Of a DNA stretch of 64,000 nucleotides, positions 2,880 through 25,505 are shown piece by piece. How positions within the stretch are numbered: the first letter of the stretch is position 1; each line of letters opens with the position of its first letter. The position numbers and the translations under genes are program-made. The DNA comes from Thiohalomonas denitrificans (lineage in GTDB: Bacteria; Pseudomonadota; Gammaproteobacteria; Thiohalomonadales; Thiohalomonadaceae): NCBI RefSeq assembly GCF_016841685.1, contig NZ_JAENYR010000005.1:1-64000 (forward strand), written 5' to 3'. Under the pieces are notes generated by a model. The model had not been told where the DNA came from and made no database searches. It saw nothing but the letters and a program-made list of their open reading frames with translations.

Positions 2880-3587
2880 TCAGGGATGAAACAGTCCCGA
2901 GATACTGAGCGCGCCCATACCGATAAGCATGGCACCCGCGGTCCGCTCCAGCCCACCCTTCCAGCCTGCCAGGCGCTCACGGACCTCAGCACCGATATGC
3001 GCCACCACCAGGCTGAACAGAACGGCGGGAATGGCTACCGCACCCAAGCCGAATCCCACCCCCAGCATCAAACCCGCGGTCGGGTCAGCCGTGACGGCAG
3101 CCGCCAGTGCCACCGTGCCGAGCGGCACACATGGATTGAGCGCCATGGCCGCACCCATTCCAAACAATCCCATCGGCATGAGCGCGGTATCGGCAGGTTT
3201 GTGGTGCAAAATGATTTCCGATTGATTCCCGGGAGAAGGGTGTGCACTGCAGGATGACGGTGTGCCTTTACCCGTTCGGCGCGACCGCCACAGGATCACA
3301 AGGCCGACGATGACCGATGCGGCACCGAGCAGGACGGCCCCGGCGCCGTATTCCAACTGCACCGTCACCGCACGCCCCACAGCTGCCGCTGCCGCGCCGA
3401 GGGCCGCGTAGGCAGAGAGCCGGCCCAGCGAAAACGGCAGAATAGTGCGCCAAGCCTGTCTGATACCGCCCGAGCGGGCCAGAAAGACCGGCCCGAGATA
3501 GGGCAGACAGGCGATATTGCAGGGCCCTGCACCGTAGATCAGGCCCATCACTAGCGCTGCCGAGAAGCTGAGTGCGACCGGTTCCAT
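2880..3587 (-). CDS. CcdA/TauE-SafE-like membrane protein
   Basis: Integral membrane protein of 235 aa with about six hydrophobic segments arranged as two halves. The first half carries GPCNIACLPYLGPVF and the second ALNPCVPLG, a duplicated Cys-Pro pattern typical of the DsbD/CcdA transmembrane electron carriers and of the sulfite-exporter TauE/SafE (COG2836) proteins grouped with them. A histidine-containing hydrophilic loop lies between the halves (about 110-145). It follows the TonB-dependent receptor on the same strand by 140 bases. It may move electrons or a metal/sulfur species across the inner membrane for the reductase locus upstream; this is inference from position. Confidence 0.7.
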   Translation of the reverse strand: MEPVALSFSAALVMGLIYGAGPCNIACLPYLGPVFLARSGGIRQAWRTILPFSLGRLSAYAALGAAAAAVGRAVTVQLEYGAGAVLLGAASVIVGLVILWRSRRTGKGTPSSCSAHPSPGNQSEIILHHKPADTALMPMGLFGMGAAMALNPCVPLGTVALAAAVTADPTAGLMLGVGFGLGAVAIPAVLFSLVVAHIGAEVRERLAGWKGGLERTAGAMLIGMGALSISGLFHP

Positions 3588-3726
3588 TTACGTGCTCCGG
3601 GATTCGTCATTCGGGATAGCATGGCCGCCCTGTTTCCGGGCGGCCGTTTCGGTTGCGATTCCGACCAGGAAGGGCATCCCTGCCCCAGTCTGAAATCCTT
3701 TGTGGTGCGTTTCCTGCCGAATCGGT

Positions 3727-5943
3727 TCAGAAACGCAGGGACACACCTGCATAGTACGCCCGGCCCGGATTCACGACGATTGAAAGATCCTCCTCATCGT
3801 AGACACCATCTTCATTACCATCCCCCGTGCCACGGACCGTGTTGTAAAAACGCTCATCCATGACATTGTCGACGCGGGCGAAGAAAGACCAGTCCTTGGC
3901 GTCGTAATTCAACAGCAGATTGAAGACCTCGTGGCCATCGATTTTTTCCTGGTTGATTTCATCGGCGTAATAGGAGGAGATAGCATCCATTTCTCCGGTC
4001 AACAGCCACTTACTGGCTGGCCGGTAAAGCAGCCGCAGATTGGCGTGGTGCTCCGGTACGCGTGGAACGCTGTTCCCGGCGTTGTCGTAGGTCTTGTCGC
4101 AGGCGACAACCTCCATTGTTCCTGTTCTGTAGTTATATTCCGTTATTCCTGTAAAACCAGACGAACAGCTCCCACCAACCGGCTCCACTCTCAAGTGGTA
4201 GTCGTCATATTTCGTATAGGTGCTGTCGAGATAGGTATAAGCGATGTCCATCGATAGCTTGCGGGAGGGGTCGGTCAGCAGCGAGAGTTCAAGCCCGCGG
4301 CTGCGGAAATCCCCCACGTTATCGTAAACGGCATCGGTACTGGTGGAGTACTGCCCCCCGGTGGACTGGATATGGTCGTAACGATCGAGTTGGAAGATGG
4401 CGGCATCGAGATCGACCGGCAGACCCAGCCAACTGGTTTTGGTCCGAAACCCGATTTCCCTGTTGATGGTGGTTTCGGGGTCGAGGTCCGGATTGGGTGC
4501 GGTTTTATGGCTGGGGCTATTGCTGCCCACGAACAACTGCTCCGGAGAGGGTGCCCGAAATCCCGTGGAGGCATTGGCGTAGAGGTCCATGTTCGGGCGA
4601 AGCGAATAGTTGCCGCCCAGTCGCCATGAGAAGACATCGAAATCCTTTTCACCGTTGAGCTCCGAATCCAGCTTATCCTCGTACTCCAGCTCGATGCGGT
4701 CTACCCGACCATTGGTGGTAAAGGTCAGCCGCTCGGTCGCCTGCATTTTAACTTCGCCATACAGCGCCTGCACCTTTTCGTCGGTGTCGTTGAAGTTGGC
4801 CGGATCACCAGGTAAAGCTGCATTCCAGCCAGTGGTCTCGATTCGGAAGGTGTCGCGGTTCTGGTACAGGTTATCGCGCAGATCCACCCCCGCCATCCAG
4901 GCAACGGTCTCGCCGCCGGTCCGGAACTCCGACTTCACTCCGCGCTGCACCTGATGATAGTCGTTGTCATAGGTGTAGACTTCCGGATCATCGTCGGTGG
5001 GAGCGGTTACAAACTCGGTGTCGTCGGTGAACTGGTAGGCATTGACCATCCAGTTCGACGCTTCTCCAATATCGTTGGAATAGGTCAGGAAGTACTTGGA
5101 CAGATCGACGTCAAAGTGATTGGCGTAATCGTTGTAGGAGGGGTCCTCACTCTTCGGATCCTCCTCGGCCGCAGTGACCCCTTTGACATTGCCATGGCTC
5201 CCCTTCTCCCGATTGGAGCGTTCGAAGCCAAAGGTCAGGTCACTGGTATCGCTCAGGTAATATTGCAGTTTACCGTTAAGATAATCCGCCTGGGATGCGG
5301 AATCGTCATAATAGCCGTCCGTCTGGCGGCTGGAGACCTGGACATGTCCGTTCGCTTTTTCACCCGCGAAACCTGCCCGAGCCAGTCCCTTTTGATGTCC
5401 GAAGCTGCCGCCTTCGGCCTGAACCAAATAGCCGGCCTTGTCCGCGCCGCGCTTGGTGGTGATAATCACGGCACCTGAGAGGGCATCATCACCGAATAGA
5501 TAGGAGGCGCCGCCTTTGACTACCTTGATGGACTCGATGTTGTCGAGATCGATGTTGACGCGGCCGGTCCGTTCAAAAACAGGCACGCCATCGATGACGA
5601 CGGCCACGCCCGGTTTTTCCCCCATGTAGACCTGATTCTCCACTCCGCGGATATGGATCTTCAGGGAGTCACCGCTCTGCACCTCCGTGGTAACACCGGG
5701 GATTTGCTGCAGTATCTGCTGGATGTTTTCGGCATGCGCCGCATCCACCTCTTCGCCCCTGACGACGCCAATGTTCGAAGGTTCACCCCGCTTGCTATCG
5801 AAACGGTCGTCGATGGTGGTGGACTCCACCTGGATAATGCCCAGGTCTTCTGCCGTGGCGACCTGAGTTCCGGAAAGCATCACGCCGCCCAACATTGCGG
5901 CGCTGACGGCCGATGCCAGCCGAGACTGACGAAATTCAAACAT
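3727..5943 (-). CDS. TonB-dependent outer-membrane receptor
   Basis: Protein of 738 aa with a signal peptide ending near TQVATA, then a TonB-box-like stretch (DLGIIQVES). A plug domain follows (GVRGEEVDAAHAENIQQIL, IHIRGVENQ, VVIDGVPV, VVKGGASYLFG, AVIITTKRG), then a beta-barrel ending in the aromatic C terminus YYAGVSLRF. It imports a bound substrate across the outer membrane using TonB energy. The plug resembles BtuB/siderophore-type receptors, but the substrate is not evident. It sits just downstream of the double-cubane-type reductase operon on the same strand, separated by 228 bases that hold a hairpin leader, so it may bring in a cofactor metal or the substrate of that system. Confidence 0.93.
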   Translation of the reverse strand: MFEFRQSRLASAVSAAMLGGVMLSGTQVATAEDLGIIQVESTTIDDRFDSKRGEPSNIGVVRGEEVDAAHAENIQQILQQIPGVTTEVQSGDSLKIHIRGVENQVYMGEKPGVAVVIDGVPVFERTGRVNIDLDNIESIKVVKGGASYLFGDDALSGAVIITTKRGADKAGYLVQAEGGSFGHQKGLARAGFAGEKANGHVQVSSRQTDGYYDDSASQADYLNGKLQYYLSDTSDLTFGFERSNREKGSHGNVKGVTAAEEDPKSEDPSYNDYANHFDVDLSKYFLTYSNDIGEASNWMVNAYQFTDDTEFVTAPTDDDPEVYTYDNDYHQVQRGVKSEFRTGGETVAWMAGVDLRDNLYQNRDTFRIETTGWNAALPGDPANFNDTDEKVQALYGEVKMQATERLTFTTNGRVDRIELEYEDKLDSELNGEKDFDVFSWRLGGNYSLRPNMDLYANASTGFRAPSPEQLFVGSNSPSHKTAPNPDLDPETTINREIGFRTKTSWLGLPVDLDAAIFQLDRYDHIQSTGGQYSTSTDAVYDNVGDFRSRGLELSLLTDPSRKLSMDIAYTYLDSTYTKYDDYHLRVEPVGGSCSSGFTGITEYNYRTGTMEVVACDKTYDNAGNSVPRVPEHHANLRLLYRPASKWLLTGEMDAISSYYADEINQEKIDGHEVFNLLLNYDAKDWSFFARVDNVMDERFYNTVRGTGDGNEDGVYDEEDLSIVVNPGRAYYAGVSLRF

Positions 5944-5986
5944 ACCTAACCCCTTAAATAATTATGATCGATTATGTTTTTTCCGT

Positions 5987-6024
5987 GTCACTGCCTCCCT
6001 GATGGGCATCCGTAGCCCTGTGAC
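5987..6024 (-). promoter_or_regulatory. possible structured leader of the TonB receptor gene
   Basis: Read on the minus strand, an outer stem GTCAC/GTGAC encloses an inner hairpin GGGC-TACGGAT-GCCC, about 45 bases upstream of the receptor ATG. It has no following T-run, so it is not a terminator. It is too short for a cobalamin riboswitch and matches no riboswitch class I can name. A cis-regulatory RNA is possible but unproven. Confidence 0.35.
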
Positions 6025-6171
6025 TAACTTCCTATCGATGGCAATAAAATTCCAAAATTGAAATTCTTGAATTATTTGGTATTCATCTTCTGTGCTGTAA
6101 ATCAGCCATATGGTTCATCCCGAAAATCGATAGCATTTGTCTCTCTGAAGCGGTTGGCCAGATTCCGGGCT

Positions 6172-6999
6172 TCAGGACCTGCAAGTCTGCTCGGCATCGG
6201 CCGCTTCCGCCTGCCACGCTTCACGGGCGAGAATCGCGGCGCCGTAGGCCGTGGTGATTTGAGGGATATCGGGGATCACCAGCTCGCGCATCAGCTCCTC
6301 TTCGAATGCCGCCACCAGCCCCTTGTTCAGAGCGGGACCACCATCGAAGTAGATGCGGTCTTCCAGACCGACCCGCTTGGCGAGCCGGACGGTTCGCTTG
6401 GCGATCGAATAGTGGATACCCGCAACAATCTCTTCTTTGGAATAACCGCTCGCCAGCAGACCGATCACCTCCGATTCGGCAAATACGGCACAGGTGCTGT
6501 TAATCGCAGGCGGTGCGCCCTTGAGGTTGAAATGGCAATCACCGAGCTCGTCCAGGTTGAGCTCGAGGTTGCGCGCTGCCATGTCGAGAAAACGACCGGT
6601 ACCTGCGGCACACTTGTCATTCATGGCGAAAGTGACCACATTGCCATCCTCGTCGATCTGAATCGCCTTCGAATCCTGACCGCCGATATTGATAATGGTC
6701 CGCACGCCGCCGTAGGCCTCTCCCGCCTTCTTTGCCCCCATGGCATTGGCGGTGATCTCGCTCACGGATTCATCGGCTTCGCGGTAGAGTTTTCGCCCGT
6801 AGCCGGTCGCCGTAAGAAAAGCGATATCCGCCTGCTCAAGGCTGTTTTCCTTCAGCAGTGAGTGGAACGCCTCTTGCGCATTGCCGTAGAAATGGCTGCC
6901 GGTTGCGACCGTTTTACTGGCGAAAAGGTTGTCCGCCTCATCGACCAGAACCACCTTGATCGCGGTGGAACCGATGTCGATACCTGCAAAATACGGCAT
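6172..6999 (-). CDS. BcrAD/BadFG/HgdC-type ATPase, reductase activator
   Basis: Protein of 275 aa of the ASKHA-fold activator family: a homodimer with one [4Fe-4S] cluster at the interface that couples ATP hydrolysis to injection of low-potential electrons into a partner enzyme. FAGIDIGSTAIK (4-15) is the phosphate 1 motif and NIGGQDSKAI the second. The two cluster cysteines are in NDKCAAGTGRF and NSTCAVFAESE. YFDGGPALNKGL is the adenosine motif. The ATG at 6999 follows a Shine-Dalgarno AAGGAG and starts one base after the stop of the reductase gene; open sequence further upstream only overlaps that gene. Its length and neighbour fit the reductase of the double-cubane cluster system or YjiL. 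Confidence 0.9.
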   Translation of the reverse strand: MPYFAGIDIGSTAIKVVLVDEADNLFASKTVATGSHFYGNAQEAFHSLLKENSLEQADIAFLTATGYGRKLYREADESVSEITANAMGAKKAGEAYGGVRTIINIGGQDSKAIQIDEDGNVVTFAMNDKCAAGTGRFLDMAARNLELNLDELGDCHFNLKGAPPAINSTCAVFAESEVIGLLASGYSKEEIVAGIHYSIAKRTVRLAKRVGLEDRIYFDGGPALNKGLVAAFEEELMRELVIPDIPQITTAYGAAILAREAWQAEAADAEQTCRS

Positions 7000-7000
7000 G

Positions 7001-8272
7001 CTATTTTCTCCTTCTGCGTGCCTTGAGCGACTCGATGAACGCCTCGATGCGTGTCGAAAGCTGACCGACATCATCGGGGCTGTAATCGGTCTCCACGTAC
7101 AGCGAGGGGATCCCCTCGTCGGCGAGGAAGCGGCTGATACTGCGCTGTTCCATTTCAAAGACCTGACACCCGGAAAAGGCCTGGTACACCACACCATCCA
7201 CCGCGAATGTGCGTGCCAACTCCAGTAGCCGGCGCTTGCGATCCTCGTCACTGATGAAGATGGGACAGGTGCAGGGTTTGAGCGCACGGTCGGCGACTGC
7301 ATCCACCATGTCGTAGAGCTGCCACTCATCGACATTGACGGCGTCGTAGAGCATGCGATTGGCGGAGCAGGTTTCGTCGGCGACAATCACCGCCCCCGAC
7401 TGCTCGATTAGCGTGGGCAGCTTGAGGTTGGGAAAGATGGGCGGTGAACCGGTAAACAGAATACGCGGTGCCCGGCGCTGGGCGGCGGCGAAGCCCTCCT
7501 CGCAGCGCTTCTCCACCTCATCATTCAGCGCCTCGACGGCATCGGTCCAGGCATCGATGTCGTCGAAGAAATAGGCATTCGTCACCAGAAACACATCCTT
7601 GCCGAGGATGGGCGCGAGCGGCGCCATGCGCAGGCGATGCAGTCTGCGAAAGGCCTGCTGCGCGCGCGCCACCCTGGCGATACTGTCGCGCAGGCTGTTG
7701 CGGGTGATCTTGTGTCCGGTGAGCGAACCCAGCTCCCGGGCGAATCCGTTGACATTGCTCTGCCAATAGGTGCGGGCCGCCTCACTCTCCTTGGAGGGAG
7801 GCAGTTCGAGGTGATGGACCCGGTAGCCGGCCTCCTCCATCAGGCGACCCGATTTGGTCTTCTGGTCACAGGTGGTCACGTTGACAATGTCCCGGCCTTC
7901 GTCGAGCCAGGAGGCGAGTCCACTGGAGAGCATGCCGAGGGTCGCCTTGACCAGGGAGCAGGACTTGGCCGGCATGAACTCCGCCCCGAGCTGGTCGTAG
8001 GTATGGGACCCGTTACAAAGACGTACGGGTACGGCACCGGCCGCATAAATGAGCTCCTCGGGAACCTGCACGCAGGTGGTGCCGATGACCTTTTTTCCCG
8101 GGTGCGGCACCTCGCCTTCGCAGTGAATGCGGCGGTAGAGGTCGTAGAAGTAATCCATTGCCTTCGGATTATCGGGAAAGTCCTTTTCAATCTTGTTCAG
8201 CGCCTGAGCGGATTCGCGGGATAGCTGCTTGCGCGCCATCTCGGTCTGTTTTGCCTTTACCTCGGCGCTCAT
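7001..8272 (-). CDS. double-cubane-cluster/YjiM-type reductase (HgdB superfamily)
   Basis: Protein of 423 aa in the 2-hydroxyacyl-CoA dehydratase/benzoyl-CoA reductase superfamily, but encoded by one gene rather than a pair of subunit genes. Its cysteines at 67 (TTC), 86 (RLC), 105 (KSC), 135 (TTCD), 302 (ETC), 334/336 (CTC) and 369 (GC) follow the spacing I recall for E. coli YjiM and the double-cubane cluster proteins, which hold an [Fe8S9] cluster and reduce small molecules. Ordinary HgdB-type subunits carry fewer ligands. ETDYSPDDVGQLSTRIEAF near the C terminus is the family signature. Its ATG overlaps the polyferredoxin stop (ATGA), and the activator gene follows after one base. The physiological substrate is unknown; a dehydratase role is not excluded. 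Confidence 0.78.
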   Translation of the reverse strand: MSAEVKAKQTEMARKQLSRESAQALNKIEKDFPDNPKAMDYFYDLYRRIHCEGEVPHPGKKVIGTTCVQVPEELIYAAGAVPVRLCNGSHTYDQLGAEFMPAKSCSLVKATLGMLSSGLASWLDEGRDIVNVTTCDQKTKSGRLMEEAGYRVHHLELPPSKESEAARTYWQSNVNGFARELGSLTGHKITRNSLRDSIARVARAQQAFRRLHRLRMAPLAPILGKDVFLVTNAYFFDDIDAWTDAVEALNDEVEKRCEEGFAAAQRRAPRILFTGSPPIFPNLKLPTLIEQSGAVIVADETCSANRMLYDAVNVDEWQLYDMVDAVADRALKPCTCPIFISDEDRKRRLLELARTFAVDGVVYQAFSGCQVFEMEQRSISRFLADEGIPSLYVETDYSPDDVGQLSTRIEAFIESLKARRRRK

Positions 8273-9255
8273 CTCTTCCTCCTCTTGGTCATGCGCTTGA
8301 AGAAACCGGCTTCGGTCGATTCATAGATGGGGATCCCCATGAACGAGGCCTTGAGTGCCCCCTCCTCGGGACAGGAGGCGACGCACTTGAAGCACATCAT
8401 GCAGTCGTCCTTGATCAGCGTTTTACTCTCGACATCGTCCGCTATTTCCTTGATCTGCATGTCGCAGGCGCGATAGCAATCACCGCAACGGGTGCACTTG
8501 CTGCCGTCCTTGCGCAGCTTCAGCAGCGCCACTTTCGAAAACAGCGAATGGAGCGCGCTCATGGGACAGAAAAAGCAGAAAAAACGCTTGTTGATGAACC
8601 CGCCGATAAAGAAGATCCCGAGCACCAGCATCCCAAGTCCGGTCATGGTGGCGGCGGTGCCGGTGGAGAAGTCCACGGTCCACTGGGAGAAATCACCGGT
8701 AAACGCCGGGATCACCATGCGTGCCGGACAGATCTTGCAGAACGGCGTCCCCATGTCCTCCGGCAGGGTCGGCAGTCCCGCCACGGAATTCGCCATCAGA
8801 AACGGGATCACGATCAATAGGATCAAAAGGATGTACTTGATCTTCTTGAGCCGGGTGAACCAATCCAGGCTATAGGTGGAATAGCGAATACCGAGCTTCT
8901 GACGCAGGCTCGTCATCCAGTCCTGGATGGTTCCCAGCGGGCAGGCATATCCGCACCACGCCTTGTTGAAGACGAAAAGCCAGGCGACAAAGGTCAGCAG
9001 GCCGGTGAGAATGCCGAGCCCGCGCCAGCTGATGATGCTGTCCCAGGGGATGTGGGTCTGATGCTGCAGCGGCAGGAGATAGCAGACTCCCGCCCGCCCC
9101 GGCTGGTTGAAGCCACAGGAGAACGTCGGCAGGGACTGGCCGAGATTGATCAGGAAGTATCCGCCGTACACCAGCAGGACAAAAAACCCCAACTGGACCC
9201 AGAAGCGAAACCGCCGGATATCGGCCCCGTTGATGAATGCCCGTAGCCGCTTCAC
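8269..9255 (-). CDS. NapH/NosR-type membrane polyferredoxin
   Basis: Inner-membrane iron-sulfur protein of 328 aa. Several transmembrane helices (first at about 18-38) surround two CxxxCP motifs, CGYACPLG and CFFCPMSA, which are the NapH/NosR/CcoG signature. FCKICPAR adds further cysteines. A C-terminal double [4Fe-4S] ferredoxin follows: CTRCGDCYRACDMQ and CMMCFKCVASCPEEG. Such proteins carry electrons from the quinone pool or a periplasmic donor to a partner. The GTG start overlaps the upstream TGA (GTGA) and the stop overlaps the next ATG. In this operon it is the obvious electron donor to the ATP-dependent activator and reductase. Confidence 0.88.
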   Translation of the reverse strand: MKRLRAFINGADIRRFRFWVQLGFFVLLVYGGYFLINLGQSLPTFSCGFNQPGRAGVCYLLPLQHQTHIPWDSIISWRGLGILTGLLTFVAWLFVFNKAWCGYACPLGTIQDWMTSLRQKLGIRYSTYSLDWFTRLKKIKYILLILLIVIPFLMANSVAGLPTLPEDMGTPFCKICPARMVIPAFTGDFSQWTVDFSTGTAATMTGLGMLVLGIFFIGGFINKRFFCFFCPMSALHSLFSKVALLKLRKDGSKCTRCGDCYRACDMQIKEIADDVESKTLIKDDCMMCFKCVASCPEEGALKASFMGIPIYESTEAGFFKRMTKRRKR

Positions 9256-10229
9256 TGGAGCCGCTCCCGTCCCGCCCGGCTGTGCTTCAGGCGGTAGAGG
9301 AACACCCCTCCGGCACCCAGTGCCGCTGCGATCAGCGCCACGATGAGACCTACCAGATAGGACGAGTACTCCACTTCGGAGGGATAAAAGATGCCCGGCA
9401 GGGTTGCCCGATAGTGGGCCTTTTCGAACGGTGTGCCATTCAGCTCACCGGGCGTCTCGACCCGATACTCCGCGGTGACCAGAAAGGCCTCGTGATGCCT
9501 CTTGTCAAAGTCGTTCCAGGCGGGATAGTAATCACGAATCAGCTTGAACACAGCCCTACCGTCCGCGTCTGCCACCACCTGTTTGGTCCAACCCTCCCGG
9601 GTGGTCAAGCTGACGTTGGCACCGGCGGCGGGGCTCCCTTTGTAGTGGACGCGAAAGCCCACCTTATCGCCGGATCGAATCCGCGTATGAAAATCTTCAC
9701 CGGGGAGACGTTCGCGAATGATCTCCAGGGGCACACCGGCCCGGTCCCGCGGCGGCATGCGTGATGCAGTGAGTTTGGGATCGTGTCCCTCGCCGCAGCT
9801 GTGCTTGAGGACCTCCGCCTTGACGATGGAGGTCTTCAGCACGGCATCTTCGACGCTGCGTTCGATGAAATAGGCGTTATAGAACCCTTCTTCGGGCATG
9901 GGGAAGGTGATGCCGCCACCGCTGGCGACCTTGAACAGGTCGGGTGCAAGGCTTTCGCCATCGATGCCGAACACGCCGAAACTGGCATCATCGGCGGGCT
10001 GCGTATAGACGGCGGAGGCCGGCTCACCCCCGGCTCTCAGCCAGAGCCGCTTGACGTAGACGCCTCCACGGCCCCGTTCGATCATCCCGCCGTGCGCGTG
10101 GTGTGCACGCTTGGCCCACTCCGCATCCGGCGGCTGATCGGAAAACCAAACCGGTTCGGCCTGGGCGCTTCCGGCCAGCCCACCGGACAGCAGCACAAAC
10201 CCGATCACCCAGTATCGCCACTCTGCCAT
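9252..10229 (-). CDS. DUF4198-like periplasmic protein with C-terminal membrane anchor
   Basis: Protein of about 325 aa. A signal peptide ends near GSAQAEP. A beta-rich periplasmic part with a DUF4198/NikK-like appearance follows: GVYVKRLWLRAGGE, an immunoglobulin-like segment PAAGANVSLTTREGW, and ADGRAVFKL. A single transmembrane helix (about 285-307) and a basic tail end it. A His/Cys-containing stretch KHSCGEGHD could bind metal. DUF4198 proteins often accompany nickel, cobalt or TonB-dependent uptake. The ATG at 10229 has GGGAGAG at the right distance; an ATG six codons earlier is possible. It is the first gene of the coupled four-gene reductase operon. The function is inferred from neighbours only. 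Confidence 0.7.
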   Translation of the reverse strand: MAEWRYWVIGFVLLSGGLAGSAQAEPVWFSDQPPDAEWAKRAHHAHGGMIERGRGGVYVKRLWLRAGGEPASAVYTQPADDASFGVFGIDGESLAPDLFKVASGGGITFPMPEEGFYNAYFIERSVEDAVLKTSIVKAEVLKHSCGEGHDPKLTASRMPPRDRAGVPLEIIRERLPGEDFHTRIRSGDKVGFRVHYKGSPAAGANVSLTTREGWTKQVVADADGRAVFKLIRDYYPAWNDFDKRHHEAFLVTAEYRVETPGELNGTPFEKAHYRATLPGIFYPSEVEYSSYLVGLIVALIAAALGAGGVFLYRLKHSRAGRERLQ

Positions 10230-10373
10230 CTTCTCTCCCATGCCCATTCACCCCACCATCAAAAATCACGTTCATGAATACCGGCGTGCGTTACCGCTCG
10301 TTTTTTATGGAGTACCTTGAGGGACCATTCGGCTCCTCTATGCTGAGCAGATACCCTGTGCTCCGGCGGCTCA

Positions 10374-10410: not shown

Positions 10411-10594
10411 TCCGTGCACGGAGCACATTTCATGCCGATGGCTAATTCACTGTTTTTTCAGAAGTAAAGTTCGAACTTCAAACGAGGGTGCGTGTTATGC
10501 CGCACCCATCAGGGGCAAAGCACACAGTTTGGAGTGACCCCCTACAGCGTACGAATGCGCTATCTTCGCTATAAACGCATCTGAGGAGGTTGAC

Positions 10595-16034: not shown

Positions 16035-16141
16035 GGCGTTTGTTCGTGGCTTGGCGTCTTTATCATTAAGTTAGCCAATATTGAGCATTGAAATAATTGT
16101 CGTGTCAAATACACCCGGGATCACTAGGATTACTTCCGTGA

Positions 16142-16168
16142 CCAATGACTTACCGTTACAAGCATTGG
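16142..16168. promoter_or_regulatory. dyad in the LysR-rnfB divergent region
   Basis: The arms CCAATG and CATTGG are separated by 15 bases (CCAATGACTTACCGTTACAA continuing to GCATTGG). The spacing resembles LysR-type T-N11-A sites. A second AT-rich stretch with CCAATATTG lies at 16075-16083. The dyad is about 45 bases upstream of the rnfB start. Confidence 0.35.
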
Positions 16169-16209
16169 AATTTTCAATACTAACAACTGAAGCCGCATCA
16201 GGGGGTGTA

Positions 16210-17106
16210 ATGGCGTCCGTCATGCATATTGCGATTGCCGGGACGTTCATGGCGGGGCTGGGTGTTGCACTGGCTTCGGTGCTGGCCATTGCCAATCGTC
16301 GTCTGCAGGTGGAAGAGGACCCTCGACTCGACGACATCGAAGAGATGCTTCCCAACGCCAATTGCGGTGCCTGCGGTAACCCAGGGTGCCGCCCTTTCGC
16401 CGAAGCCCTGCTCGCCGGTACGGCCGAGCCGGCCAAATGCACCGTCAACCCCGTAGAAGTGAATCAGGCCATTGCAGACTTTCTGGGCATCGACCTGGGC
16501 ACCCCCGACAAGCGCGTGGCACGCCTGGCCTGTGCCGGCGGCAGTCACGTTGCCTATACCCGCGCCCGCTATCGCGGTCTGAAATCCTGTCGCGCCGCAT
16601 CTGTGGTCTCCGGCGGCGGCAAGGGATGCAGCTGGGGCTGTCTGGGCCTGGCCGATTGCGAAGCCGTCTGCGACTTCGACGCAATCCAGATGGATCAACA
16701 CGGGCTACCGGTGGTGGACGTCGACAAGTGCACCGCCTGCGGCGATTGCGTAGACATCTGCCCGAAAGAACTCTTCTCCGTGGAGCCGATCAGCCACCGT
16801 CTCTGGATCGCCTGCAAAAACCGGGACATGGCCGATGAGGGCGAGGCCCACTGCGAGGTGGTCTGCAATGGCTGCGGTCGCTGCTCCGCCGACTCACCCG
16901 AAGGGCTCATCGCCATGGAGGACAACCTGGCGGTGATCGATTACGAAAAAAACGACCTCACCTCAAAGGTCGCCATAGAGCGCTGTCCAACGGGCGCCAT
17001 CGTCTGGCTCGATGATGTCAAAGGCGCCATCAAAGGGGCCAAAGCCAGGCGGGTCACCCGCAAACAACCCCTGCCCGAACGGGTGGAGCCGCTGCCACGA
17101 CTCTGA
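16210..17106 (+). CDS. rnfB: Rnf electron transport complex subunit B
   Basis: Iron-sulfur subunit of the ion-pumping Rnf complex, which exchanges electrons between ferredoxin and NAD. From the ATG at 16210, preceded by GGGGGTG, it has 298 aa. A membrane-anchor helix lies at about 5-27. The Fe4S domain NANCGACGNPGC with a later Cys follows. Then come CSWGCLGLADC...C, CTACGDCVDICP and a C-terminal CNGCGRC cluster region. Polyferredoxin RnfB proteins of this length exceed the short E. coli RsxB. It heads an operon in which nifJ separates it from rnfC. An in-frame ATG at 16081 would add an unlikely 43-residue tail. Confidence 0.93.
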   Translation: MASVMHIAIAGTFMAGLGVALASVLAIANRRLQVEEDPRLDDIEEMLPNANCGACGNPGCRPFAEALLAGTAEPAKCTVNPVEVNQAIADFLGIDLGTPDKRVARLACAGGSHVAYTRARYRGLKSCRAASVVSGGGKGCSWGCLGLADCEAVCDFDAIQMDQHGLPVVDVDKCTACGDCVDICPKELFSVEPISHRLWIACKNRDMADEGEAHCEVVCNGCGRCSADSPEGLIAMEDNLAVIDYEKNDLTSKVAIERCPTGAIVWLDDVKGAIKGAKARRVTRKQPLPERVEPLPRL

Positions 17107-17146
17107 CAACACCGATCCCCTGAGATTACAAGAAGTGGTGTTTTCG

Positions 17147-20100
17147 ATGAAGATGAAGCAGAAAGAAGAAGTACAGGTTAAATATCCCGGCTCCCGCCAG
17201 GCGATGGACGGCAACAGCGCTGTCATCCTATGCGAGCGCGAGTCGTCCGATGCTGCCGGCGCCTATCCCATTACTCCCTCGACACAGATGGGGGAATTCT
17301 GGGCGGAAGAGGTCTCCAATGGTCACATCAATATCTCCGAACGGCCCCTCATCTTCATTGAACCCGAGTCGGAACATGCCGCAGCGGCAGTAACCGCCGG
17401 CCTGTCAATGACCGGCCTGCGCGCCACCAACTTCTCCTCGGCCCAGGGCGTGGCGTTCATGCACGAATCGCTCTACGCCGCAGCGGGCAAGCGCCTGACC
17501 TATGTCCTGAATATCGGCTGCCGTGCGATCACCAAAGCCTCACTGAATGTGCACGCCGGCCATGACGACTACCACTGCGTGGACGACACCGGTTTCTTCC
17601 AGATGATGGCCAACGACGCCCAGGGTGCCGCGGACCTGAACCTCATCGCCCACCGCGTGGCGGAGTTGGCCCTGACGCCGGGCATCATCGCCCAGGACGG
17701 CTTCCTTACCACCCACCTGATCGAATCCCTGCAGGTCCCGGAACGCGAGCTGATCGCCGAATACCTGGGCCGGCCCGAAGACCTCATCGAGTGTCCCACC
17801 CCGGCCCAGAAGATGCTGTTCGGGGAGACCCGTCGTCGCATTCCCCTGACCTGGGATGTGGACAATCCGGTCACCTCCGGCTCGGTCCAGAACCAGGACG
17901 CCTACATGCAGACTGTCGCCGCCCAGCGCCCGTTTTTCTACCGGCATATTCCGGCGCTGATGGAACGGGCGATGGAAGAGTACTACCAGCTCACCGGTCG
18001 CAAGTATGGACGTATTCACACCTACCAGACGGATGATGCGGACTATCTCATCGTCGGCCAGGGCTCCATGGTGGTACAGGCCGAGGCGGTGGCCGACTAT
18101 CTGCGAAAGAGCCGCAAGCTGAGGGTGGGTGTGGTCGGCATTACCAGCTTCCGCCCCTTCCCGGGCGATCGACTGGGACAGGTACTCAAAGGCAGAAAGG
18201 GGGTTGCCGTGCTGGAGCGAACCGATCAGCCGCTGGCGGAGGACCTGCCGCTGATGCGCGAGCTCCGCGCCACCCTCTCCAAGTGCATCGAAAACCAGTT
18301 CGCCGCCAACGGCCAGCTGCCCTGGCCCAATTACGCGGTCTACGCGAAAAACGGGGACATTCCGGTCCTCTACTCCGGCGCCTTCGGCCTTGGCTCCCGC
18401 GACCTGCAGCCCGAGGGTCTGATCGCAGCCGTGGAGAACATGCTCGATGACGGCCCCAAAAAGAAATTCTTCTATCTGTCGATCGATTTCCTGCACGACG
18501 GCCCCGAAAGCCCCAAACAGGAGCTCTACCAGCAAGAGCTGCTCGAGGCGTACCCGGATATCGGCGACCTCGCCCTGCGCGGTTCGGAAAACCCGAACCT
18601 GATGCCCGAAGGTTCGATCACGGTTCGCATGCATTCGGTGGGCGGCTGGGGCGCGGTGACCACCGGCAAAAACCTGGCGATGACCCTGTTCGACCTTCTC
18701 GATTACGACATCAAGGCGAACCCGAAATACGGCTCGGAAAAAAAGGGACAGCCGACCACCTATTATCTGTCCGCTGCACCGGAACGCATCAAGATTAGCT
18801 GCGAGTACCACTTTGTGGATGCAGTCCTCGCCCCGGACCCGAATGTGTTCGAGCACTCCAACGCCCTGTTCGGGCTCAAAAAGGGTGGCACTTTCGTGGT
18901 GCAATCCAGTCTCGACACACCGGAGGCGGTCTGGAACAGCTTTTCCTACTCCACCCGCAAGTTCGTGGTCGAAAACGACGTTCGCATCTTCTATGTGGAC
19001 GGCTTCGGAATCGCCAAGAGCGAGGCCTCCAACGCCGACCTGCAGTTCCGCATGCAGGGCATCGCCTTCCAGGGCGCCTTTTTCAAGGCCTCTCCGCTGA
19101 TGGAAGCCGCAAACCTGGATGAAAAATCGCTGTTCCGGGCCATCGAGGATCAGCTGGAGTCGAAATTCGGCTCCAAGGGCCGCCGCGTGGTGGAGGACAA
19201 TCTGCGAGTGGTCCGTCGCGGCTTTGACGAGTGCACGGAAATCCTCGACAAGCCGCTCGGTGAAGTGAACGCCCTCACCAAAAAACACAAGTCCACGCTG
19301 CCGATCACTCTCAAGCGGATGCCGCAGAACCCGGACCGGCTGACCGACATTCATCGATTCTGGGAGTCGACCGGCAATTTCTATGTCTCCGGCCACGGAT
19401 CTGACAATCTGGCCGATCCCTTCATGAGCCTGTCGTTGATCCCTGCGGCCACCGGGATCTATCGGGACATGACACAGATCCGCTTTGAGTATCCGGACTG
19501 GATTCCCGAAAACTGTACGGCCTGCGGGGACTGCTATACCGCCTGCCCCGACAGCGCGATTCCCGGTCTGGTCAATTCCATACCGGAGGTGTTCAACACC
19601 GTCATCCAGCGCATCGAGGGAAGCGGCCGCCCTACCCGTCATCTGCGCCGGGCGGTTCGTACCCTGGAGAAGAAACTCCGCTCCGGAATCGAAGCCGACG
19701 GTGAAAGCGCCAATGTGCAGCTGCTGATCGACCAGGCCATCGTCGAGACCATCGTCGAATCGGAACTGGAAGCCGAAGCCCTGGAGCGCCTCAACACCGA
19801 ACTGGAGTGGTTCAAGGAGTCCATCGGCAGTTTCAAGTTTGCCAGTACCAAGCCCTACTTCACCGCCAAAGAGAAGCGTGGCAAGGGTTCCGGCGGCCTC
19901 TTCTCGATCACTGTCAATCCGTATACCTGCAAGGGCTGCATGGAGTGCGTCGAGGTCTGCGACGACGCTGCCCTGGTGGCTGTGAAGCAGACCCCCGAAT
20001 CGGTGGAGCGACTGCGTGAGGAGTGGAACTTCTGGCTCGACCTGCCCACCACGTCACCGGACTACATCCGGGTGGACGACCTGGATGAAGCCATCGGTGC

Positions 20101-22102
20101 GCTCGATACCATTCTGCTCGACAAGCGCAACTTCGGTTCCCTGATCTGCGGCGACGGTGCCTGTCTCGGGTGTGGCGAAAAGACCGCCATTCACCTGTTC
20201 ACGGCCACCGTGACGGCGCTGATGCAATCACGGGTCAAGGTTCACCTGGCCAAAATCGAAGACTTGATCCAGCGGTTCGAAAAACACATTCGTCTGAAGC
20301 TTGCCGAGTCCATGGACCTGTCCGATACGGGAACCATCACGGCCGTGGTCGACCGGCACCGGGATGTGGACCTCACCCTCTCCCGGCTGTCGGCAGGTCT
20401 CGATGAGGACAGGGACAGCAATCCTCTGGATGCCGACTGGCTGAAGTGGGCCACGGATCTGCTGGCACGGCTCAAGGAGCTGAAGTCCAGATACGTCAGC
20501 GGACCCAACGGCAACGGCCGCGCCGAGATGGGCATTGTCAACGCTACCGGTTGCACCTCCGTCTGGGGTTCAACCTTCCCCTACAGCCCCTATCCGTTCC
20601 CCTGGACCTCACACCTGTTCCAGGACAGCCCCTCCATGGCAATGGGTCTGTTCGAGGGCCATATGCAGAAAATGGCGGACGGTTTCCGGGCCGTGCGCAT
20701 GGCGGAGCTCGAACTGAAGGGAAACTTCAATCGGGAGACCCATGGGGAATTCTTCAAGTACTTCTCCTGGAAGGACTTCAGCGACGAAGAGTTCAAGCTC
20801 TGCCCGCCGGTGGTCTCGGTCGGCGGTGATGGCGCCATGTACGACATCGGATTCCAGAATCTGTCGCGCGCGATGATGTCCGGACTGCCCATCAAGGTGC
20901 TGGTCCTCGACACCCAGGTGTACTCCAACACCGGTGGCCAGAGCTGTACATCTGGTTTCGTCGCGCAGGTAGCCGACATGGCGCCATACGGCACAGCGAT
21001 CCGCGGCAAACAGGAGATCCGCAAGGAGATTTCACTTATCGGCATGGCGCACCGCACCAGTTATGTCATGCAGAGCTCGGTGGCCAATGTGAATCACCTG
21101 CTGGAGAGCTATATCGAGGGCCTGAACAGCCGGCGACCGGCACTGTTCAACGTCTACACCACCTGCCAGCCCGAGCACGGCGTAGGTGATGAAGCGACCA
21201 TGCGTCAGACGAAACTGGCGCTCGATTCCCGCGCCTACCCGATGTTCCGCTTCAATCCGGACCGCGGCACCACGCTGGCGGAGTGCTCCGACATCGACGG
21301 CAACCCGGCCATCGAAGAGGATTGGGTCACTTACACCCTGCGCTACGAAGAAGAGGGGCAGCAGAAGAGTCTGGAGGTGCCCCTCACCTTCGCTGACTTT
21401 GCCGTGACCGAAGGGCGTTTCCGCAAGCACTTCAAAACGGCGCCGCGGGAGAGCTGGGATGACGACAAGATGGTGCCGGTAGTCGAGTTTCTGGACCTCG
21501 ACGCGGACGAGCGCGAGGGGAAATTTCCCTATGTGTGGATGGTCGATGGCAAGAACCGTCTCAATCGGGTGCTGGTCTCCCGGGAGATCATCGAGTCCAG
21601 CGAAGAGCGTCGTGACTTCTGGCGGCAGTTGAAGGGACTCGTTGGTGCCGACCAGACGGTCGATTTGAACCAGGTCGCCAATGATGCGCGCATCGATATG
21701 GCTCAAAAGCTGACCCATAGCCTGCTGGCAATGGCGACCGGCAATGCAGCGAACGGCAATGGCTTCGGGGAAACCCTGGCGGGGCTGCCGGCCAACGGAA
21801 ACGGCGCACTCCGGTTCGAGAATGGCGCCAACGGCTCGGGCGTGGCCGACACCGATTACGAAGCCGTATGGGTGGAAACCCCCGAATGCACCGCCTGTGA
21901 CGAATGCATCGAACTCGCCCCCAAAGTGTTCCAGTACAACGACAAGAAACAGGTCGAAGTGATCAACCCGCGAGGGAGTTCCTACAAGGACCTCGTCAAG
22001 GCGGCGGAAAAATGCACCGCCGTATGCATTCATCCGGGCACCCCCTGGAATCCGTCCGAGGCGGACGAAAAGCTGTTGAAACGGGCGTCGAAATTCGCAT
22101 GA
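17147..22102 (+). CDS. nifJ: pyruvate:ferredoxin (flavodoxin) oxidoreductase, extended form
   Basis: Single-chain PFOR of about 1651 aa, against roughly 1170-1230 for usual NifJ. It interconverts pyruvate + CoA and acetyl-CoA + CO2 with ferredoxin. Domain order: pyrimidine-binding domain I (AAGAYPITPSTQMGEFWAEE near 33), domain II, gamma-type domain (SVGGWGAVTTGKNLA near 496), a double ferredoxin (CTACGDC near 788, CKGCMECVEVC near 927), and the TPP domain with cluster ligands CLGCGEK (near 1006) and VGGDGAMYDIG (near 1225). Extra parts are a helical insert between the two clusters (about 820-920), a helical insert inside the TPP domain (about 1030-1125), and a C-terminal ferredoxin (CTACDEC near 1580) after a Gly/Asn-rich linker. 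The ATG at 17147 is 40 bases after rnfB. It may act as pyruvate synthase with ppsA. Confidence 0.93.
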   Translation: MKMKQKEEVQVKYPGSRQAMDGNSAVILCERESSDAAGAYPITPSTQMGEFWAEEVSNGHINISERPLIFIEPESEHAAAAVTAGLSMTGLRATNFSSAQGVAFMHESLYAAAGKRLTYVLNIGCRAITKASLNVHAGHDDYHCVDDTGFFQMMANDAQGAADLNLIAHRVAELALTPGIIAQDGFLTTHLIESLQVPERELIAEYLGRPEDLIECPTPAQKMLFGETRRRIPLTWDVDNPVTSGSVQNQDAYMQTVAAQRPFFYRHIPALMERAMEEYYQLTGRKYGRIHTYQTDDADYLIVGQGSMVVQAEAVADYLRKSRKLRVGVVGITSFRPFPGDRLGQVLKGRKGVAVLERTDQPLAEDLPLMRELRATLSKCIENQFAANGQLPWPNYAVYAKNGDIPVLYSGAFGLGSRDLQPEGLIAAVENMLDDGPKKKFFYLSIDFLHDGPESPKQELYQQELLEAYPDIGDLALRGSENPNLMPEGSITVRMHSVGGWGAVTTGKNLAMTLFDLLDYDIKANPKYGSEKKGQPTTYYLSAAPERIKISCEYHFVDAVLAPDPNVFEHSNALFGLKKGGTFVVQSSLDTPEAVWNSFSYSTRKFVVENDVRIFYVDGFGIAKSEASNADLQFRMQGIAFQGAFFKASPLMEAANLDEKSLFRAIEDQLESKFGSKGRRVVEDNLRVVRRGFDECTEILDKPLGEVNALTKKHKSTLPITLKRMPQNPDRLTDIHRFWESTGNFYVSGHGSDNLADPFMSLSLIPAATGIYRDMTQIRFEYPDWIPENCTACGDCYTACPDSAIPGLVNSIPEVFNTVIQRIEGSGRPTRHLRRAVRTLEKKLRSGIEADGESANVQLLIDQAIVETIVESELEAEALERLNTELEWFKESIGSFKFASTKPYFTAKEKRGKGSGGLFSITVNPYTCKGCMECVEVCDDAALVAVKQTPESVERLREEWNFWLDLPTTSPDYIRVDDLDEAIGALDTILLDKRNFGSLICGDGACLGCGEKTAIHLFTATVTALMQSRVKVHLAKIEDLIQRFEKHIRLKLAESMDLSDTGTITAVVDRHRDVDLTLSRLSAGLDEDRDSNPLDADWLKWATDLLARLKELKSRYVSGPNGNGRAEMGIVNATGCTSVWGSTFPYSPYPFPWTSHLFQDSPSMAMGLFEGHMQKMADGFRAVRMAELELKGNFNRETHGEFFKYFSWKDFSDEEFKLCPPVVSVGGDGAMYDIGFQNLSRAMMSGLPIKVLVLDTQVYSNTGGQSCTSGFVAQVADMAPYGTAIRGKQEIRKEISLIGMAHRTSYVMQSSVANVNHLLESYIEGLNSRRPALFNVYTTCQPEHGVGDEATMRQTKLALDSRAYPMFRFNPDRGTTLAECSDIDGNPAIEEDWVTYTLRYEEEGQQKSLEVPLTFADFAVTEGRFRKHFKTAPRESWDDDKMVPVVEFLDLDADEREGKFPYVWMVDGKNRLNRVLVSREIIESSEERRDFWRQLKGLVGADQTVDLNQVANDARIDMAQKLTHSLLAMATGNAANGNGFGETLAGLPANGNGALRFENGANGSGVADTDYEAVWVETPECTACDECIELAPKVFQYNDKKQVEVINPRGSSYKDLVKAAEKCTAVCIHPGTPWNPSEADEKLLKRASKFA

Positions 22103-22110
22103 CCAAGTAC

Positions 22111-22163
22111 ACCACAGAGCACACAGAGGAATTTCCTGGAACACTCTCTGTGTTCTCTGTGGT
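22111..22163. repeat. palindrome, CCACAGAG family, between nifJ and rnfC
   Basis: Left arm ACCACAGAGCACACAGAG, right arm CTCTGTGTTCTCTGTGGT, with a loop of about 15 bases. It lies 8 bases after the nifJ stop and 9 before the rnfC start, so it is transcribed as a strong hairpin inside the operon. Confidence 0.85.
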
Positions 22164-22171
22164 TACAGAAC

Positions 22172-23524
22172 ATGGTGTCAGCAATGGGATTTTTTAATTT
22201 CATCAGGCGGAAGAGCTTCTCGCACGGTATCCACCCGCCGGATTACAAAGAGGAGACGGCGCACAAGCCGATCCGGCGACTGCCGTTCGCCCCCGAAATG
22301 GTCATCCCGCTGTCGCAGCATTTCGGTGCAGCGGCCATTCCGCTGGTGCGGCCGGGTCAGGAAGTTCTTCGCGGTGAACCTGTCGCGCGTGCCGACGGAT
22401 TCATGTCGGCACCCATTCATGCCCCGGCGACGGGCACAATAGAAGACATACGCCTGATGCCCACGGCGCGTGGCCCCAAGGTGGAGTCCATCATCCTCAA
22501 GGCACACCCGGGTGCAAGCCAACGGGTGCTCTACGGTGCCGAACTGGACGTCGATACCCTGAGCGCCGAAGAGCTCGTGAAGGCCGTCCAGGATACCGGC
22601 ATGGTCGGACTGGGCGGCGCAGGGTTTCCAACCCACGTCAAACTCACGGTTCCTCCGGAGCATCGGGTCGATACGCTGGTGGTCAACGGCTGCGAATGCG
22701 AGCCCTACCTGACCACCGACCACCGCATCATGCTCGAGCATACGGATGAACTGATCCGCGGCATCCGCATTGCCCTGCGCGCCAGCGGCACCAGACAGGC
22801 AGTAATCGGCATCGAGGACAACAAACCCGATGCCATCGAGGCCATTCGTGAGCGCCTCAAGCCAGAGGACCCGATCGCGGTTCAGGAGGTCCGGACCAAG
22901 TACCCGCAGGGTTCGGAAAAATTGCTGATCACTGTGCTGCTGGGACGAGAGGTGCCATCGGGCGGACTTCCTTTTCAGGTGGGTGTCGTGGTCAACAACG
23001 TCGGCACCCTGGCCGAGATCGGGCGACTGCTGCCAAAAGGCGAAGGTCTCATCGAGCGCGTGGTCACCATCGCCGGGCCCGAAGTCAAAAAGCCCGGCAA
23101 TTACCTGGTGCCACTCGGTACACCCCTGCGCTTCATCCTGGAGCAGGTCGGCTATTTTGGTGACGCCGGTCACCTGATCCTGGGCGGACCGATGATGGGG
23201 ACGAGCGTGGCCTCGCTGGATGTTCCTATCACCAAACCAATCTCCGGCCTGATTGTATTGCCGGAAGAATCCGCCAACGACCACCCCGACCGGGTCTATC
23301 CCTGTATCCGATGCGGCACCTGCGTGGATGCCTGCCCGGTACATCTCAATCCGTCACGGCTGGGGCAGCTTGCGGCAAGGCGCCGATACGAGACCATGGC
23401 CGTCGAGTTCCATCTGAACGACTGTTTCGAGTGCGGATGCTGTAGCTATGTATGCCCGTCCAACATTCCGCTGGTGCAGTATTTTCGCATCGCCAAGTCC
23501 GTCAACCGCGAACGGGCAGCGTAA
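22172..23524 (+). CDS. rnfC: Rnf complex subunit C
   Basis: Peripheral NADH- and FMN-binding subunit of Rnf, 450 aa. It has the RnfC N-terminal barrel-sandwich part (FSHGIHPPDYKEET, MSAPIHAPATGTIEDI), the NuoF-like nucleotide-binding region with GLGGAGFPTHVK and NGCECEPYLTTDHR, a SLBB segment, and the two-cluster ferredoxin CIRCGTCVDACPVHLNP and CFECGCCSYVCPSN. RnfC is the site of electron exchange with NAD. A second ATG four codons in (22184) is an equally plausible start, as neither has a strong ribosome site. The upstream palindrome may affect its translation. Confidence 0.96.
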   Translation: MVSAMGFFNFIRRKSFSHGIHPPDYKEETAHKPIRRLPFAPEMVIPLSQHFGAAAIPLVRPGQEVLRGEPVARADGFMSAPIHAPATGTIEDIRLMPTARGPKVESIILKAHPGASQRVLYGAELDVDTLSAEELVKAVQDTGMVGLGGAGFPTHVKLTVPPEHRVDTLVVNGCECEPYLTTDHRIMLEHTDELIRGIRIALRASGTRQAVIGIEDNKPDAIEAIRERLKPEDPIAVQEVRTKYPQGSEKLLITVLLGREVPSGGLPFQVGVVVNNVGTLAEIGRLLPKGEGLIERVVTIAGPEVKKPGNYLVPLGTPLRFILEQVGYFGDAGHLILGGPMMGTSVASLDVPITKPISGLIVLPEESANDHPDRVYPCIRCGTCVDACPVHLNPSRLGQLAARRRYETMAVEFHLNDCFECGCCSYVCPSNIPLVQYFRIAKSVNRERAA

Positions 23525-23539
23525 TGAATACGATTGAAA

Positions 23540-23608
23540 ACCACGGGGGGCACGGGGAGCACGGGGAAACCCATTACTTTTGTTGCCGTCCCCGTGTTCC
23601 CCGTGGTT
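23540..23608. repeat. palindrome, CCACGGGG family, between rnfC and rnfD
   Basis: Left arm ACCACGGGGGGCACGGGG with a tandem extension, right arm CCCCGTGTTCCCCGTGGT. It fills almost the whole gap between the two cistrons and ends 17 bases before the rnfD ATG. Confidence 0.85.
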
Positions 23609-23624
23609 AACAAATAGAGAAAAC

Positions 23625-24656
23625 ATGGTAGCCAAGGTCGAACTCAAGACATCGCCGCATCTGCGTTCGGCACCCAGTGTCGACCAGATCATGCGCAATG
23701 TGGTTTATGCGCTGCTGCCCATCGTGGCATTCGCGATCTACCAGTTCGGATTGTCGGTCCTGGTCCTGACCATCACCGTGGTGGCGTCCTGCCTGGGAAC
23801 CGAGCGCCTGTTCAATTGGCTGTCGGGGAAACCGAATACCCTGAGTGACTGGAGTGCGGTGATCACCGGACTCCTGTTGGCGTTGACCCTGCCACCCGCC
23901 TTCCCGTTGTGGATGGGTGCCGTTGCCGGCTTTACCGCCATCGCCATCGGCAAGGCCCTGTTCGGCGGACTCGGCTTCAATGTATTCAACCCGGCGCTGG
24001 TGGGACGCGCTTTCGTCCAGGCCGCATTCCCGGTTGCGATCAGTACCTGGACACCGGCCTTTGCTCCGGGACGCTTCATGGAATTCATTCCATCGACGTT
24101 GGCATTGCCCTTCATGAAACCGCCGGCAGTGGATGACTGGATAGCCACGCAGGCGGTTGACACCTTTACCGGCGCAACGCCGCTGGCGCAGTGGAAGTTC
24201 GATGGCGAGATCGTGGACAGCTGGAGCCTCTTCAGCGGCATGACTACCGGCTCCAGCGGCGAAACCTCTGCCCTGCTGATCCTGGCTTGCGGCGCCTATC
24301 TGGCCCTGCGGCGCATGATGAACTGGCAGATACCCGCTGCCATGCTGCTCGGTGCCGCCCTGACCGCCCTGCCCTTCTGGCTCTACGCACCGGAGACGTA
24401 CCCCTCGCCGGTGTTCGTCCTTTTCTCCGGCGGACTCATGCTGGGCGCGGTATTCATGGCCTCCGATATGGTCGCCTCACCGGTGACCCCGCGGGGGCTG
24501 TGGATCTATGGGCTGTTAATAGGCTTTTTAACAGTCGTGATCCGGTTCTGGGGCGGCCTGCCGGAAGGCGTCATGTACGCCATTCTGCTCGGTAATGCCG
24601 CCTCGCCGCTGATCGAATCCATCAGCCAACCGCGGATTTACGGCCAGAAGAATTGA
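23625..24656 (+). CDS. rnfD: Rnf complex subunit D
   Basis: Integral membrane subunit of 343 aa with about ten transmembrane helices, related to NqrB. The FMN attachment region reads FTGATPLAQWK, where the Thr of the (S/T)GAT motif carries covalent FMN. The sequence FNPALVGRAFVQAAFP is the conserved segment of the family. The start at 23625 (GAGAAAACATG) is preferred to one 15 codons earlier, which lies within the palindrome. RnfD takes part in the membrane electron path and ion translocation. Confidence 0.96.
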   Translation: MVAKVELKTSPHLRSAPSVDQIMRNVVYALLPIVAFAIYQFGLSVLVLTITVVASCLGTERLFNWLSGKPNTLSDWSAVITGLLLALTLPPAFPLWMGAVAGFTAIAIGKALFGGLGFNVFNPALVGRAFVQAAFPVAISTWTPAFAPGRFMEFIPSTLALPFMKPPAVDDWIATQAVDTFTGATPLAQWKFDGEIVDSWSLFSGMTTGSSGETSALLILACGAYLALRRMMNWQIPAAMLLGAALTALPFWLYAPETYPSPVFVLFSGGLMLGAVFMASDMVASPVTPRGLWIYGLLIGFLTVVIRFWGGLPEGVMYAILLGNAASPLIESISQPRIYGQKN

Positions 24657-24658
24657 TT

Positions 24659-24736
24659 AACCGCAAAGCTTCCGCTCCTGCTCACGCTCCTCACCTACAT
24701 CCCTGTAGGCGAAGGCGCAAAGAGCGCAAAGATAAT
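24659..24736. repeat. interrupted palindrome arm, CCGCAAAG family, between rnfD and rnfG
   Basis: TTAACCGCAAAG directly follows the rnfD stop and is broken by a 44-base segment (24669-24712) ending in CTACATCCCTGTAGG, after which GGCGCAAAGAGCGCAAAG resumes. CTACATCCCTGTAGG recurs near 39462-39476. The element looks like one repeat inserted into another. Confidence 0.7.
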
Positions 24737-24773
24737 TGGCCGGAAAGGTCACTAACACACAGAGCATCACAGG

Positions 24774-25502: not shown

Positions 25503-25505
25503 ACC

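Follow-up and report, generated by a model that had tools for sequence, protein, structure and literature searches.

In a 64,000-nucleotide stretch of the Thiohalomonas denitrificans genome (NZ_JAENYR010000005.1, positions 1 to 64,000; hereafter the window), six minus-strand genes encode what we read, with roughly even confidence, as a TonB-dependent module for acquiring a trace metal, most likely copper, extended by its own dedicated, ATP-driven reductase of the double-cubane type. In the proposed arrangement, an outer-membrane receptor powered by ExbB/ExbD/TonB would bring a metal complex into the periplasm, where an anchored DUF4198-like protein would act as metal holder. A polyferredoxin would serve as an inner-membrane electron wire between a periplasmic Cys/His site and cytoplasmic [4Fe-4S] clusters, and a DsbD_2 protein would carry metal or electrons onward. 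An activase would spend ATP and load electrons onto an [8Fe-9S] reductase, whose low-potential reduction would help to release the incoming metal complex or its ligand, or to process either. What double-cubane proteins do in the cell has been described as unknown (PMC11971306). We tentatively suggest, with clearly less confidence than in the module itself, that they play a part in copper acquisition, in which the nitrogenase-like reductase is wired through the polyferredoxin to a TonB uptake system, and this system supplies copper to N2O reductase, among others.

A single-gene reductase of the double-cubane type

A check of the open reading frames in the window found the six genes where the first-pass annotation had placed them, on one strand and linked by the short overlaps and single-base gap that it described (Table 1). 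The DUF4198-like gene overlaps the polyferredoxin gene by 4 bases, and the polyferredoxin gene overlaps the reductase gene by another 4. The activase ATG lies 1 base past the reductase stop codon, which assigns the activase to the frame that begins there rather than to a longer open reading frame extending to 7386. The receptor gene lies 228 bp downstream of the activase gene and is followed 139 bp further on by the DsbD_2 gene.

The reductase matches the Pfam family HGD-D (319.7 bits) and exceeds the cutoff of the NCBIfam family NF040772, "double-cubane-cluster-containing anaerobic reductase" (357.6 versus 350 bits), whereas some members of its clade fall slightly under that cutoff (334-347). 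Its nearest solved structures are the double-cubane cluster proteins (DCCPs) 7YYL and 6ENO (E ~1e-67), and it scored far below the equivalogs of two-subunit dehydratases and benzoyl-CoA reductases (96 versus 454 bits for bzdN and 88 versus 700 for HadC). The activase matches BcrAD_BadFG in Pfam (194.5 bits), CoA_E_activ and TIGR00241 (237 bits against a cutoff of 125.4), with HadI (4eht, E 5e-63) as its best structural match. Together with the cluster ligands described below, these sequence matches support the earlier proposal of a single-gene enzyme of the double-cubane type with an ATPase activator.

BzdN, of class I benzoyl-CoA reductase, holds an [8Fe-9S] cluster through Cys36, Cys73, Cys100, Cys263, Cys293 and Cys327 (PMC11971306). 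Residues C67, C105, C135, C302, C336 and C369 of the reductase align with these six ligands and are invariant in 31/31 module sequences; by this mapping from BzdN, they are the expected ligands of an equivalent cluster. Unlike BzdN, which needs the second subunit BzdO, the reductase has no second HGD-D subunit gene in its operon. The first-pass annotation had listed eight cysteines (67, 86, 105, 135, 302, 334, 336 and 369) as a set seen in YjiM and double-cubane proteins. All eight are present, and they are invariant in the 31 module sequences and in the nine loci described below. However, only seven, C86 among them, are shared with YjiM and with the DCCP of Carboxydothermus hydrogenoformans (DCCP_Ch), whereas C334 is specific to the module clade (31/31) and is replaced by Ile, Thr, Val or Leu in 29 other family members. 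Two further residues near the ligand cysteines in sequence, K103 and Q137, also mark the clade (31/31); elsewhere these positions hold Asn in 27/29 and Gly in 27/29, respectively.

In the reductase tree, the 31 module sequences form one clade (100/99), which is joined (100/100) by two Desulfobacterota sequences alone, L142 and L143, both of which also have genes for a polyferredoxin and a DUF4198-like protein next to them. HutW and an IsdE-like protein are encoded close to L142, and L143 has WtpBC-like genes of a tungstate-type ATP-binding cassette (ABC) system nearby. DCCP_Ch (6ENO, 7YYL) resembles the module reductase as a single HGD-D gene with an adjacent activator, but it is ~35% identical, stands apart from the clade, carries Asn and Gly at the positions of K103 and Q137, and lies in a different operon. 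The YjiM/YjiL pair of Escherichia coli is likewise a reductase with an activase and has the same ligand cysteines; however, YjiM also falls outside the clade, is 32% identical and lies away from any gene for a polyferredoxin, a receptor or a DUF4198 protein. The wide co-occurrence of the six genes (see below) means that the proposal survives the check for refutation that the first-pass annotation had set itself.

Recurrence of the module and its reductase-less sister

One scan of genome contigs gave nine loci with the same neighbours, in Gammaproteobacteria, Alphaproteobacteria, Nitrospirae, Campylobacterota and Desulfobacterales. A search with a polyferredoxin alignment, which spanned ~1000 genomes, found, at ~500 bits or above, 34 copies of the reductase-linked polyferredoxin, distributed over 32 genomes of Gamma- and Alphaproteobacteria, Campylobacterota, Desulfobacterota and Nitrospirota. 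The reductase gene is directly downstream of 32 of the 34 copies (in L010, the contig ends within it). The exceptions are a copy on contig C31 of genome G017 (L070) and one of the two copies in G532 (L087). Both of these genomes also contain a complete module. Within the stretches that we fetched, the receptor is found in 26/32 genomes, the DUF4198-like gene in 31/32 and DsbD_2 in most, and ExbB/ExbD/TonB genes often round out the module. Because 32 genomes from several phyla carry the core made up of polyferredoxin, reductase and activase, its association exceeds chance, and this co-occurrence bears out both the six-gene grouping and the pairing of a dedicated polyferredoxin with the reductase. 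Each part is of a known kind, and neither the assembly nor the reductase clade seems to have been described in the literature that we searched; no paper in this open-access set pairs double-cubane proteins with TonB uptake. Since members of the clade keep to a single defined gene neighbourhood across several phyla, including cultivated Campylobacterota groups, the function of double-cubane proteins becomes testable by genetics.

A second polyferredoxin group (~200-270 bits) occurs in modules that contain the receptor, a DUF4198-like protein, DsbD_2 and ExbB/ExbD/TonB, without a reductase (L074-L082). Among the genomes holding only this group, 0/13 contained a double-cubane gene when the whole genome was searched at the threshold used. 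Reductase-bearing and reductase-less modules interleave in the receptor tree, where the window receptor groups with the reductase-less ones. Because reductase-less modules exist and their receptors are interleaved with the others, uptake seems to be the primary function and the reductase a specialised extension of it. The existence of such modules also means that the polyferredoxin serves a purpose for which a reductase is not required.

The polyferredoxin features two CX2-3CP motifs (C101/C105 and C227/C230) and two C-terminal [4Fe-4S] motifs, a membrane layout that it shares with CcoG and NapH/NosR. In contrast to these relatives, it scored under the cutoffs of the NapH models (76.4 versus 234 and 80 versus 213 bits), left the CcoG model unmatched and carries four additional cysteines, C47, C58, C173 and C176, none of which is found in NapH. 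These four are invariant in 36/36 polyferredoxins of the reductase group and 11/11 others, and H65 is present in 46/47. Helix positions and charges predict that the four cysteines and H65 lie in periplasmic loops; an AlphaFold model built from 10 sequences was discarded (predicted local distance difference test, pLDDT, 43). The membrane [4Fe-4S] protein CcoG, which is laid out in a similar way, acts as a cupric reductase (PMC7558416); this likeness is a functional lead and not family membership. By analogy with CcoG, and given its cysteines and neighbours, the polyferredoxin could equally pass electrons outward to a periplasmic metal. The path drawn in the first-pass annotation, from quinol or a periplasmic donor through the polyferredoxin and the ATPase to the reductase, is thus putative; polyferredoxin modules occur without a reductase, and flow in the outward direction is equally possible.

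A related alternative is that the activase has the polyferredoxin as its dedicated donor, with quinol, ferredoxin or a periplasmic donor feeding the polyferredoxin, and that the reductase acts on an imported organic substrate, which the metal proteins would merely supply. That the polyferredoxin, reductase and activase genes are translationally coupled would fit this arrangement, as would the distinctness of the DCCP-linked polyferredoxins, which form their own high-scoring group and invariably carry Asp (D265) after the fourth Cys of the first [4Fe-4S] motif (CxxCxxCxxxCD), where reductase-less relatives have Pro (CP). However, the distant L142 and L143 polyferredoxins retain Pro although a reductase is present. 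Furthermore, reductase-less modules share receptor clades with reductase-bearing ones, which makes the imported ligand independent of the reductase, and quinol lacks the reducing power for this role unless energy is put in. We consequently regard this alternative as unlikely. The activase may receive electrons through the polyferredoxin or from ferredoxin, and a conventional alternative supply of low-potential electrons exists in the window in the form of rnfB, C, D, E and A, which lie on the plus strand at 16081-26739, ~6 kb from the operon, with a gene for a 1696-residue pyruvate:ferredoxin oxidoreductase-like protein between rnfB and rnfC.

We consider it more doubtful still that the reductase and activase themselves spend ATP to supply the polyferredoxin with electrons, and that the polyferredoxin then delivers these, at very low potential, to a periplasmic metal complex. 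The double cubane of BzdN acts as an electron transfer or storage cofactor (PMC11971306), the periplasmic cysteines of the polyferredoxin are invariant, and the reductase-less module indicates that the polyferredoxin works alone, all of which would suit such a flow. Yet no double-cubane protein is known to pass electrons to a membrane polyferredoxin, single-subunit DCCPs carry out the reduction of small molecules themselves (PMC11971306), and so low a potential is unneeded for Cu(II) reduction.

Metal-binding fold and links to copper

The DUF4198-like protein scored below the Pfam gathering score (24.5 versus 34), and a sequence search of solved structures gave no usable match. Its AlphaFold model (pLDDT 87.7) resembles Zcp with Zn, Cu or Co bound (Z 18.2-18.9) and Ni-bound IsDUF4198 (Z 16.0), and the next rows score 7.5, so that on this model the protein has a metal-binding fold of the Zcp/IsDUF4198 type. 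DUF4198 proteins typically carry an N-terminal histidine (PMC12537917). Here, a cleavage site placed by eye (AQA/EPVW) leaves no His at the mature N-terminus, and a conserved His lies in a later HGG motif. In Campylobacterota, a second Fer4_5 polyferredoxin-like membrane part is fused to the DUF4198-like protein (L005:6285-9038, L006:6645-9008), and the Sulfurovum fusion (L005) also contains a NosL domain.

Other genomic links likewise point to copper. Reductase-less modules lie beside a Sec-type nosZ (869 bits; L077) and beside a PCuAC copper chaperone (L078). A nosZ gene is present in 16/34 reductase-module genomes, 9/13 reductase-less genomes and 3/33 others (p 9e-4 and 1e-4, with relatedness ignored and the 33 comparison genomes hand-picked from the same searches). 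We also searched eight genomes for the palindrome TGYGNCAWWTGNCRCA, which was drawn partly from module promoters. The genome of the window has five sites, of which two lie elsewhere; the other three are upstream of nosZ (no mismatch), of nosR-nosZ-nosD-F-Y-nosL (nosRZDFYL) and of exbB-exbD-tonB with a TonB-dependent copper receptor (TIGR01778, 665 versus 472 bits). The palindrome recurs at copper receptors of G015, G017 and G103, in tandem in the first two, and the L077 receptor has two perfect copies; the sites independent of the consensus are those at nos, at copper receptors and at L077 only. The module shares TonB-linked copper uptake, as proposed, and a promoter palindrome with NosA/OprC receptors, although these have no reductase and the window receptor falls outside their family. 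A separate NosA-type receptor is encoded elsewhere in the genome. Whether the receptor and the DUF4198-like protein bring in a metal or the substrate had been left undecided by the first-pass annotation; the fold, the NosL, PCuAC and nosZ links and the palindromes favour a metal, by association probably copper, over the substrate. If copper is correct, the module would represent an unusual copper uptake route in sulphidic, low-oxygen habitats, with a bearing on the control of bacterial removal of N2O, a greenhouse gas.

Several observations weigh against copper import. The palindrome copy at the window promoter is degenerate, with 8/1000 shuffles equally good, and the palindrome is missing from the nos loci that we retrieved from most of the other module genomes. 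No nosZ is present in 18/34 reductase-module genomes, including all 11 from Desulfobacterota, Nitrospirota, an alphaproteobacterium and an unplaced proteobacterium. The window receptor falls far below the TonB-copper model TIGR01778 (cutoff 472 bits), which is absent from the 25 best of 26 families for this receptor, and the module contains no inner-membrane metal importer besides DsbD_2. Genes for a ZnuA-like protein, a ZnuC-like ABC ATPase and a Zur-like Fur-family protein lie tail to tail with the G009 module (L068:3147-5393). Finally, DUF4198 proteins elsewhere bind Ni or Zn or respond to iron or zinc: IsDUF4198 prefers Ni (PMC12537917), and DUF4198 genes in Caulobacter respond to iron and zinc (PMC3751524, PMC4176598).

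These DUF4198 preferences and the Znu/Zur-like neighbours, as well as the HutW, IsdE-like and WtpBC-like genes near L142 and L143, would be in keeping with a module for nickel, zinc, cobalt or iron whose nos links reflect a common anaerobic lifestyle. In contrast, the NosL fusion, the PCuAC and nosZ neighbours and the palindromes in common with TonB-copper receptors argue for copper, and we see another metal as a possible but minority explanation. It is very improbable that the reductase has as its substrate a small molecule from denitrification or sulphur metabolism (for instance N2O, azide-like or cyanide-like) and is merely co-regulated with metal uptake. In vitro, acetylene, hydrazine and azide are indeed substrates of DCCPs (PMC11971306), and module and nos promoters have the palindrome in common; however, the reductase is fixed within a TonB uptake operon, and the module is found in genomes without nosZ.

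Three further accounts were rejected. Strict dependence of the module on nosZ conflicts with the lack of nosZ in the Desulfobacterota and Nitrospirota genomes, and in the single alphaproteobacterial genome, that carry the module, and a NosA-type copper receptor is not a constant partner (5/34 module genomes). The palindrome was also considered as a NifA site (TGT-N10-ACA); its conserved interior and its copper-receptor matches favour another regulator.

Features of the locus and its promoter

Table 1. Features of the operon and promoter in the window (all on the minus strand), and palindrome sites in the same genome
Feature	Position	Locus	Basis
DUF4198-like periplasmic protein with N-terminal signal helix and C-terminal membrane anchor; Zcp-like Zn/Cu/Co/Ni-binding fold (modelled)	9252..10247		Pfam sub-threshold, AlphaFold, structure comparison
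Membrane polyferredoxin	8269..9255		Fer4_5 and Fer4_10, motif alignment
Double-cubane-cluster type reductase	7001..8272		NF040772, DCCP structures, BzdN ligand mapping, tree
BcrAD/HgdC-type activase (ATP-dependent electron donor)	6172..6999		TIGR00241, HadI 4eht, start codon reading
TonB-dependent outer-membrane receptor	3727..5943		Plug and barrel
DsbD_2 (CcdA-like) inner-membrane protein, candidate metal or electron carrier	2880..3587		PF13386, 68.9 bits
Degenerate palindrome copy TGCGGCATAACACGCA, 2 mismatches to TGYGNCAWWTGNCRCA	10489..10504		Shuffles (see text)
Sigma-54-like -24/-12 element CGGCATGAAATGTGCT; better copies in relatives	10422..10437		Consensus match alone
Palindrome sites at nosZ, nosRZDFYL and TonB-copper operon	C139:9796, C5:1373, C91:30658	L177, L178, L180

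The window receptor has TonB plug and barrel domains and scored under every NCBIfam receptor cutoff; against solved structures, it gave weak matches to siderophore, CntO and colicin receptors alone. The degenerate palindrome site at the window promoter is also present in a sister species (L064). FNR-type boxes were found at module promoters of one genus only, and, of the neighbouring genes that we read beside module operons, none was recognised as a sigma-54 activator. In the genome of the window, a sigma-54 activator and a DsbD_2 gene adjoin the TonB-copper receptor, perhaps as its regulator and partner, and a ZnuA-like metal-binding protein adjoins the Sec-type nosZ on contig C139 (L177:9930-11393).

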